64,000 nt of DNA. Origin: Ruegeria sp. TM1040. GTDB taxonomy: Bacteria; Pseudomonadota; Alphaproteobacteria; Rhodobacterales; Rhodobacteraceae. The stretch covers positions 180,001 through 244,000 of the forward strand of contig NC_008043.1 in NCBI RefSeq assembly GCF_000014065.1. Direction: 5' to 3'. Shown piece after piece: positions 35,137 through 36,686 of the stretch. A model generated the notes under the pieces. The model saw nothing but the letters and a program-made list of their open reading frames with translations, ran no database searches and was not told where the DNA came from. Position 1 is the first letter of the stretch; each line of letters opens with the position of its first letter. A program made the translations under genes and the position numbers.

Positions 35137-36363
35137 TCACTCCGCTGCGACGGCGTGTGGGCCGCTGTTGCGTTTGAGGGTAGAGAGATACCACTCCACA
35201 AATTGCAGGACGCCGCTCTCTTGGGTCGGGGAATAGGGCCCCGGTTCATAGGCCGGCGAGTTGATCCCCATCTGGTTGAACTCCACAACCTCGCGGTCTT
35301 CGTCATTGGTGGCAATCCAAACCTCGGTGAGCCGCTGTAGATCGTAATCCACACCTTCAACCGCGTCTTTGTGAACCAGCCATTTTGTCGTCACCTCGGT
35401 TTCCGTGGGGCTGATGGGCGTGACCCGGAACACGATCGAATGGTCCGACAGGAAGTGGTTCCAAGTGGTCGGGTAGTGGAACTTGAGCAACGAGCCCGCA
35501 TCCGCAAAGGCTGCACGGCCCAGCCAGCGACGCACGGCGGTCTTGCCGTCCATCGTGTAGCTCTCAGCGCCTTCTTTCAGGGGCATGCGCGCGACACGGA
35601 ACTGGCCATCACCGCTGAGGTGGAACCCCGAAGGCATCCCAGCCTGCTCACAGCGGTCGAAATGAGCCTGCAAATTGCTCGGGGTCTCGCCACCTTCGAT
35701 GCCCGTCACGGAGGGATCATCCGGGAAGGTCCGGCAGAGCGCGGGGTGATTGCCGCCGCAGTGGTAGCACTCGCGGTTGTTCTCCCAGACCAGCTTCCAG
35801 TTGCCGCGCTCCACGATGGAGCTTTCATGGGCGACCTTGGCGTTCGAGAGGTCATGAACCTCCAGATAGGGGCGGGCGACCTCGGCAAACCGTTCAAAAT
35901 CCGGGGCCTCATCGGCGAGACAAATATAGATCAACCCAGCAAGCTCACGGCAGTGGACCGTCTTGAGCCCATGTCTGCTCGGCTCGAAATCAGGCCCCAT
36001 ATCACGCGCCCACAGCAGACGACCGTCCAGTTCATAAGTCCACTGGTGATAGGGGCAGACGAGCTTAGGGTTGTTGCCTTTCTTCGCCTTGCAGATCACC
36101 GAGCCACGGTGACGACAAGCATTGTGGAAAGCCCGAATGACATTGTCTGCACCGCGCACGATGATCACATTGTAGTTGCCAACCTGATGGGTGACGTAGC
36201 TCCCTGGCTTGTCCAGCTCGCAGGCGGGAATGGCAAAAAGCCATTCTTTGTAAAAGATCTCCTGAAGATCGGTCTGAAACACCTCGGCATCGGTATAAAA
36301 CGCCTGATCAAGTGCATGTCCTGCGCGGTGGTTAGCGATCAGCGTGTTGATATTGCTGTGCAT
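35137..36363 (-). CDS. gbcA: Rieske-type oxygenase, glycine betaine monooxygenase-like (GbcA)
   Basis: The 408-residue protein has a Rieske [2Fe-2S] site (CRHRGSV then CPYHQW) and a C-terminal catalytic domain with the mononuclear-iron motif ([13 protein letters not shown]). It resembles glycine betaine and proline-betaine demethylases, which remove an N-methyl group as formaldehyde with O2. The ATG at 36363 follows AGGAA; an in-frame TTG six codons earlier is unlikely. It forms an operon with the reductase. Upstream are a 16-bp palindrome and a cobalamin riboswitch on the same strand, which is unexpected for this enzyme class. Betaine is the most likely substrate, but stachydrine or carnitine cannot be ruled out. 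Confidence 0.85.
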
Positions 36364-36382
36364 TTCCTGGCTCCGTGACAAA

Positions 36383-36398
36383 GTTCACACGTGTGAAC
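36383..36398. promoter_or_regulatory. 16-bp perfect palindrome in the gbcA leader
   Basis: GTTCACACGTGTGAAC is perfectly self-complementary and ends 20 bp before the gbcA start codon. It may be a repressor operator or, in RNA, a hairpin close to the ribosome site. It lies between the riboswitch and the gene. Confidence 0.6.
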
Positions 36399-36507
36399 CT
36401 TCGCCCTGTTGGTAGAGTGCAAACGGCAATGGGATCCCGTGAGGCCGCGAGGGAGGTGCCCGCGTCCTTTTCAAGATGCCCAAACCGCCGCCCGCGGTTG
36501 ACGATAT

Positions 36508-36686
36508 CTGCCGAGGCTGGTTTCCGGGCTCTGGGGGTGACCTGCTGGTCGGAGCGCAACGCCTTCCCGGGTCCTCCTCCCAGTGGCAGATGTTACGCCC
36601 GCGAATCCCATGACCGTTGCGGGGGCAGCGCCGGAATCGCACCGGCTTCCCAATTCTCCGTCCGGAAAGCCCGGACAGCACCTCGT
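36508..36686 (-). ncRNA. Cobalamin (adenosylcobalamin-type) riboswitch
   Basis: Read on the minus strand, this leader has the conserved cobalamin riboswitch blocks in order. These are a GGTGC block near 36680, GGGAAGCCGGTGCGATTCC (near 36630-36650), GCCCCCGCAACGGT (36613-36626), CCACTGGGA (36578-36586), GGGAAGGCG and the B12 box AGCCCGGAAACCAGCC (36515-36530). The spacing and order match the family. The next gene in this direction is gbcA, 145 bp away, with no gene between. Typical riboswitches of this class switch expression off when B12 is plentiful. An intrinsic terminator is not obvious after it, so control of translation is likelier. Confidence 0.92.

Follow-up and report, generated by a model that had tools for sequence, protein, structure and literature searches.

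Why should the operon of a catabolic Rieske oxygenase stand behind a riboswitch for vitamin B12? We address this question for a 64-kb stretch of DNA (the window), which lies on an 822-kb contig of the 4.15-Mb, three-contig genome of Ruegeria sp. TM1040. In our reading, the riboswitch-controlled operon encodes an O2-dependent Rieske N-demethylase that probably serves as a B12-independent substitute for corrinoid demethylation and is repressed by B12, a metabolic logic that the comparisons below support without proving it.

A cobalamin riboswitch in front of a two-gene operon

The locus is built from the following features:

36498 to 36700, minus strand: cobalamin riboswitch aptamer (RF00174; cmscan 109.7 bits, gathering threshold 31.5, E = 1.4e-26)
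35137 to 36363, minus strand: Rieske oxygenase subunit of 408 aa, of the quaternary-amine N-demethylase type (group Vb) and with the same sequence as PDB 3n0q
34064 to 35131, minus strand: GbcB-like reductase partner of the flavin and 2Fe-2S type (NF058606, 354.3 bits; start in the ORF list, GTG at 35194)
34008 to 34041, minus strand: probable intrinsic terminator 3' of the reductase gene, recognised by sequence, position and fold

The original prediction had claimed a cobalamin riboswitch in this leader and suggested a search with the Rfam covariance models. That search places RF00174 at 36700-36498 on the minus strand, far above its gathering threshold and at full length (model positions 1-189 of 189), as the sole RNA family match that cmscan finds in the window at Rfam gathering thresholds; the riboswitch is confirmed. 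The predicted interval, 36363-36686, takes in nearly the whole aptamer and the 135 nt that separate its end from the Rieske ATG at 36363, and it stops short of the other end, which runs to 36700. The ORF list of the window has no coding-strand gene between the aptamer and this ATG, which bears out the further claim that nothing intervenes, and the riboswitch thus stands directly 5' of its gene, as it does before B12-independent isozymes under cobalamin riboswitches. The ORF list begins the Rieske gene at a TTG at 36381, and the PDB 3n0q chain, identical to the window protein over all 408 aa and presumably the protein of this very organism, Ruegeria (Silicibacter) sp. TM1040, aligns from the ATG.

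The Rieske and reductase genes form a two-gene unit, probably ended by the terminator. Folding of 34005-34066 gives -38.4 kcal/mol (z -5.48), a stability equalled by 0 of 200 shuffles; our motif scan, whose rule is five T in eight, missed the site. Since this probable terminator follows the reductase gene, the sugar-type ABC genes downstream probably belong to a separate unit, and a longer operon that includes them is unlikely. A reductase homologue adjoins the Rieske gene in 50 of 52 family neighbourhoods, the exceptions being L069 and L085. Elsewhere in the window, a gene of the 5-guanidino-2-oxopentanoate decarboxylase subfamily (28049-29620; NF005712, over its cut-off) lies beside the sugar-type ABC transporter genes, and TRAP transporter genes at 36964-40140, possibly unrelated, diverge from the riboswitch-led operon.

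Identity and substrate of the oxygenase

The original prediction named the operon gbcAB, which proves too firm. GbcA and GbcB are indeed the best NCBIfam models for the two proteins, which share the two-subunit make-up of the GbcAB glycine betaine monooxygenase, but both remain under their cut-offs: 501.6 bits against 670 for NF058607 (GbcA) and 354.3 against 500 for NF058606 (GbcB). The nearest characterised relative of the oxygenase is instead PDB 3vca (668.7 bits, residues 9-408), which we take to be Stc2, the stachydrine (proline betaine) demethylase of Sinorhizobium meliloti. In the quick tree described below, the window protein falls outside the 42-row Stc2 clade that holds 3vca (SH-aLRT 97) and outside the GbcA clade as well. 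Because of these scores, the proximity to Stc2 and the position in the tree, the name gbcA is not earned.

The protein shares with Stc2 the features of group Vb, namely the CRH signature from residue 83, CPYH from residue 103 and the catalytic E-C-x-H-C...H stretch at 195-206. An alignment by eye places an Asn at the position of CntA Tyr203, as expected of group Vb when the CntA reference residues given in the available text of PMC7948474 are used. We infer that the substrate is a carboxylated quaternary amine, with glycine betaine and proline betaine as the best candidates.

Conservation of the arrangement among relatives

We searched 248 genomes of the family, 60 of which have a match at E <= 1e-60, and kept 53 genes with at least 42% identity from 51 genomes, dropping 11 of the 64 family matches at 32-39% identity. 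Of the 53 homologues, 20 have a cobalamin riboswitch immediately 5' of the gene and in the same orientation; scans of all the other 33 found none in this position. The leader of the window itself is retained, among the plasmid records listed, on three Tritonibacter plasmids (82.9-85.3% identity over 82-84% of the query).

For the wider picture, the family homologues were combined with 80 named loci and the loci of a phylum search into a set of 153 rows. The tree excludes L098, which has an in-frame stop, and shows rows of the same sequence once. It is a quick LG+G4 reconstruction in which long branches were flagged as meeting between the 7 outermost rows and those of GbcA. It separates these outer 7, the 13 GbcA rows over the cut-off, an 11-row clade of Labrys and genomes of the same bacterial class, a clade of 32 rows, and a group of 90 in which the window protein and Stc2 stand separately. 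Riboswitch-led copies make up 48 of the 153 rows and occur in Rhodobacterales and Hyphomicrobiales; 39 of the 48 were called by the covariance model and 9 by the nhmmer profile alone (L124, L125, L127, L128, L140, L142, L146, L147 and L148). Named carriers include Ruegeria, Shimia, Leisingera, Phaeobacter, Sulfitobacter and Marivivens, with Roseibium and Labrys in Hyphomicrobiales.

A full riboswitch precedes 8 of 11 rows in the Labrys clade, 0 of 13 in the GbcA clade and 0 of 42 in the Stc2 branch. Fragmentary remnants are seen at L160 in the Stc2 branch (32.0 bits) and at L060 (22.9 bits, nhmmer), and parsimony gives 11 changes of riboswitch state among 122 rows. The geometry of the leader is kept, the end of the profile match lying 87-177 nt (median 129.5) from the matched coding start at 40 riboswitch-led loci. 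The comparison with leaders of other Roseobacters proposed at the outset thus finds the riboswitch-Rieske arrangement conserved. One locus, L091, carries two cobalamin riboswitches ahead of its Rieske gene (6836-7908), both in one orientation and separated by some 0.7 kb.

Possible corrinoid-dependent counterparts

In line with the corrinoid route suggested by the original prediction, the same genome carries corrinoid-type methyltransferase genes. There are two genes of the MttB superfamily (MttB-type methyltransferases), one for a stand-alone MtgC-like B12-binding (corrinoid) protein, close to which lies a homocysteine methyltransferase gene, and, on the replicon of the window, metH in two ORFs (C2:671764-675547; L023 2765-6548). 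The two MttB proteins score 316.5 and 409.8 bits against PDB 9yce, which is named a glycine betaine methyltransferase, and one of them is closer than the other to both 9yce and PDB 4yyc.

A precedent comes from Ruegeria pomeroyi, whose demethylation of glycine betaine and synthesis of methionine both require MtgC and MtgD, according to the available text of PMC12478193, which also states that GbcAB-bearing bacteria without MtgBCDE have MetH and in which the word riboswitch occurs once, in a reference title. The MtgBCD system, with homologous families in the genome of the window, would be the B12-dependent counterpart proposed here. It differs from the Rieske enzyme in that its chemistry proceeds without oxygen, and the TM1040 genome has Rieske, MttB, MtgC-like and MetH proteins together.

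Across the 51 genomes, the mere presence of these genes discriminates weakly, with no clean split. Where a riboswitch-led copy is present, 20 of 20 genomes have MttB, but so do 26 of 31 others (p = 0.14), which deprives its presence of discriminating power; MtgC is found in 19 of 20 and 26 of 31, the riboswitch-led genome in which it was not seen (G118) being 84% complete. A subfamily defined by at least 390 bits to the MttB of L061, a threshold picked post hoc, occurs in 16 of 20 against 13 of 31 genomes (p = 0.0098, kinship ignored), and genomes with such a copy have more MttB matches each than those without (Mann-Whitney p = 1.1e-4, with fragments counted and kinship ignored). Gene order adds two loci. 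In L061 (G227), a GbdR-like regulator, MttB, an FAD/GcvT amine dehydrogenase, a riboswitch-free Rieske gene and the reductase follow one another on one strand; in L138 (Ruegeria sp. Ofav3-42), an MttB gene whose product is 75% identical to that of L061 lies near a riboswitch-led Rieske gene on the opposite strand. Though two loci are few, they are the best hint that the two enzymes may share a substrate.

These data bear on the strongest of the alternatives, namely that the operon is controlled as we propose while its substrate is not common to a corrinoid enzyme, low B12 acting instead as a signal of betaine availability. MttB members are diverse, and the two in this genome resemble 9yce only at the scores given above, which leaves room for such a reading; the MttB-Rieske run of L061, the MttB-Rieske neighbourhood of L138 and the larger number of MttB matches in riboswitch-led genomes speak against it, and we regard it as unlikely.

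Other targets of the same riboswitch class

The riboswitch in the window is one of six cobalamin riboswitches in the genome, the fifth by score. One of its companions leads nrdHI-like ORFs together with a ribonucleotide reductase of the NrdE/NrdF type (TIGR04170, 1216.6 bits against a cut-off of 750), and the genome also encodes the B12-dependent NrdJ (571.3 bits summed, cut-off 399.95); with both in one genome, the logic of substitution is therefore already in use. Further ones precede genes with CobN, the gene for CbtA, an ORF without a Pfam match that is followed by a BtuC-like permease under its cut-offs, and another ORF without a Pfam match. Of the six, the one at C3:185259-185492 precedes a 165-aa ORF that has no Pfam match.

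We compared the neighbourhoods of 122 loci over 7 kb, 40 of them riboswitch-led and 82 not. A further riboswitch lies nearby in 9 of the 40 and in 5 of the 82 (p 0.013), and in 6 of the 9 (L064, L084, L093, L143, L151 and L210) it leads nrd genes. The arrangements include these:

(i) L210, from Labrys sp. WJW, has the 3' part of metE, a riboswitch with nrdAB, and a riboswitch with the Rieske and reductase genes in a row.

(ii) L064 has a divergent riboswitch-nrdI-nrd unit, then the riboswitch-Rieske-reductase unit, and next metH, whose own riboswitch lies 0.5 kb ahead of it; a 100-aa ORF may occupy this gap.

(iii) L093 has riboswitch, Rieske, reductase and metH genes, followed by a riboswitch leading nrdH, nrdI, a core-MetE gene and nrd.

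(iv) L143 and L151 have a riboswitch-nrd unit near the riboswitch-led Rieske gene. Such a unit also occurs near riboswitch-free Rieske genes in L078 and L094, and the L187 stretch has nrd and a riboswitch.

Because the B12-dependent MetH shares such clusters, not all targets of these switches are B12-independent. Its position in L064 (7549-12070), 0.5 kb behind a cobalamin riboswitch of its own, is unusual for a B12-dependent enzyme, as is that in L091 (473-7031) and L093 (2828-9384), where metH follows the riboswitch-led Rieske-reductase pair immediately and in the same orientation. MetH is encoded in two ORFs, the homocysteine domain and then the rest, in the TM1040 genome and in L064, L091, L093 and L101; a split found in the genome and four relatives looks like a real two-subunit form. 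In Labrys L211, MetH occupies one ORF. The core-MetE-like gene inside the riboswitch-led nrd run of L093 lies at 706-1950 (NF005085, over its cut-off).

The same neighbourhoods weigh against a second alternative, in which the Rieske enzyme belongs to the B12 regulon in order to feed B12 synthesis with glycine and with one-carbon units for the corrin methylations. Glycine is the precursor of 5-aminolevulinate in this class of bacteria, and genes for CobN and CbtA are under the same riboswitch class in the genome. According to the available text of PMC8123684, betaine raises industrial B12 yields. The further riboswitches near the Rieske operon, however, lead nrd genes at 6 of the 9 loci, with other genes seen only at L141 (an ABC ATPase whose substrate is uncertain) and L137 (a gene of DUF4198), and this alternative leaves the MttB genes beside the Rieske genes of L061 and L138 unexplained. 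Since B12 is needed in tiny amounts, a catabolic oxygenase would also be a poor source of precursors, and we hold this explanation to be improbable, slightly more so than that of an unshared substrate.

The four commonest partner clusters of riboswitch-free copies, LysR, TetR, AraC/DJ-1 (L158-type) and FMN oxidoreductase, occur in 0 of 40 riboswitch-led against 58 of 82 other loci (p 1.2e-15), a contrast in which the clusters were chosen after viewing. Because the contrasts follow the tree, they are not independent evidence, and on 9 independent pairs the neighbourhood contrasts are not significant. The broader statement that riboswitch-led copies lack any nearby substrate-type regulator is too wide: another AraC/DJ-1-type cluster, to which the GbdR-like gene in L061 belongs, is present at the riboswitch-led L137 and L152, plus three other loci. 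From gene content, it looks as if RNA control replaces substrate control at riboswitch-led loci, with the independent pairs not significant.

A model for B12-dependent switching

The reading we prefer, that of a B12-independent substitute, builds on the riboswitch, the two-gene unit, their conservation, the corrinoid-type genes and the same riboswitch class before nrd. We envisage the following steps:

(i) When B12 is present, the aptamer would bind it and block expression of the operon, most likely at translation, and demethylation would proceed by the corrinoid-dependent route, with methyltransferases of the MttB/MtgB type and the corrinoid protein that resembles MtgC.

(ii) When B12 is scarce, the block would be lifted, and the Rieske enzyme would replace the corrinoid route. 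That scarcity switches the operon on was also the view of the original prediction, and we infer the same.

(iii) Use of the Rieske enzyme would spare the remaining corrinoid for methionine synthesis.

By analogy, we propose that the operon may be the same kind of substitute as MetE or the B12-independent ribonucleotide reductase. B12-independent isozymes are a named category of cobalamin riboswitch targets in the available texts of PMC3766115 and PMC2211319. As with the metE and nrdAB isozymes, the same RNA class lies directly before the gene, and the genome may hold a B12-dependent enzyme for the same task; the difference is that the target is a catabolic Rieske oxygenase rather than a methionine synthase or a ribonucleotide reductase. 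By term counts, Rieske and betaine are absent from the main text of PMC3766115, and no link between a cobalamin riboswitch and a Rieske or betaine demethylase appears among the literature matches listed.

If the model is true, it adds a new pair to the short list of enzyme swaps governed by B12 supply, in osmolyte breakdown and not in biosynthesis, and it ties B12 supply to the breakdown of algal betaines by marine bacteria and to their spending of O2. The choice of Roseobacters between corrinoid and oxygenase chemistry is directly testable through addition or removal of B12. More tentatively, one may picture an alphaproteobacterial B12-scarcity programme in which riboswitches jointly induce B12-independent nrd, an O2-dependent osmolyte demethylase and a dedicated methionine synthase, an extension that we offer as a possibility well short of the confidence we place in the substitution itself. 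Under such a programme, a corrinoid-short cell would leave the MtgC-type pool common to demethylation and methionine synthesis, the last B12 would be kept for methionine, MetH would be under a B12 riboswitch on purpose, and the targets of cobalamin riboswitches would often sit in one gene cluster in many alphaproteobacteria.

Leader architecture and mode of control

Two hairpins mark the leader from the end of the aptamer to the gene:

36483 to 36499, minus strand: hairpin (AACCGCGGGCGGCGGTT) where the aptamer ends, probably P13/L13 and a candidate for kissing-loop pairing with L5 (CCCCCG)
36380 to 36401, minus strand: hairpin AAGGTTCAC-ACGT-GTGAACTTT directly 5' of the Shine-Dalgarno sequence, candidate translation-control element

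The available text of PMC10653944 describes an L5-L13 kissing loop that stabilises P13 and favours a hairpin at the ribosome site. The P13/L13-type hairpin is near-invariant among 23 aligned leaders, its loop almost invariant, and the stretch is identical in two Tritonibacter leaders. L5 is near-invariant across the aligned leaders too, so that there is no L5-L13 covariation to judge. The hairpin forms when the 45-nt stretch 3' of the B12 box is folded; in the fold of the whole 146-nt spacer, the P13 stretch pairs further downstream and the hairpin is absent. The stability of this spacer is not unusual (z -1.24).

The second hairpin has a nine-pair stem, which the minimum-energy fold of the spacer contains as well. 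Beside the Shine-Dalgarno sequence, 38 of 47 other riboswitch-led leaders can form a stem of five pairs or more, against 28% of shuffles, as can 22 of 91 riboswitch-free leaders, against 19% of shuffles, counts in which the gene starts are approximate and the leaders related. In L123, L124, L125 and L127, the GAGGAC of the Shine-Dalgarno site is within the stem itself. The sequence of the window hairpin is not retained in the two Tritonibacter leaders. A motif scan finds no terminator-like site in the leader and no promoter-like site on its coding strand, the latter saying little in this organism. Control is likely to be exerted through translational repression by B12.

The sign of control could be the opposite, with the Rieske operon on when B12 suffices, because one activating corrinoid riboswitch is described in PMC10653944; the available text of the same paper states that all corrinoid riboswitches known earlier repress and names as repressed targets the kinds of gene to which the companions in this genome (nrd, CobN and CbtA) belong, which makes activation very unlikely. 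It is just as improbable that the element is a relic with no regulatory effect, as the remnants at L160 and L060 might suggest, since the aptamer of the window is complete and its core is conserved together with the following hairpin among the 23 leaders.

Within the hairpin beside the Shine-Dalgarno sequence lies the perfect palindrome GTTCACACGTGTGAAC (36383-36398), which occurs once in the window and is absent from the two Tritonibacter leaders. Its position is that of a GC-rich hairpin next to the start in relatives, and it could alternatively serve for the binding of a protein.
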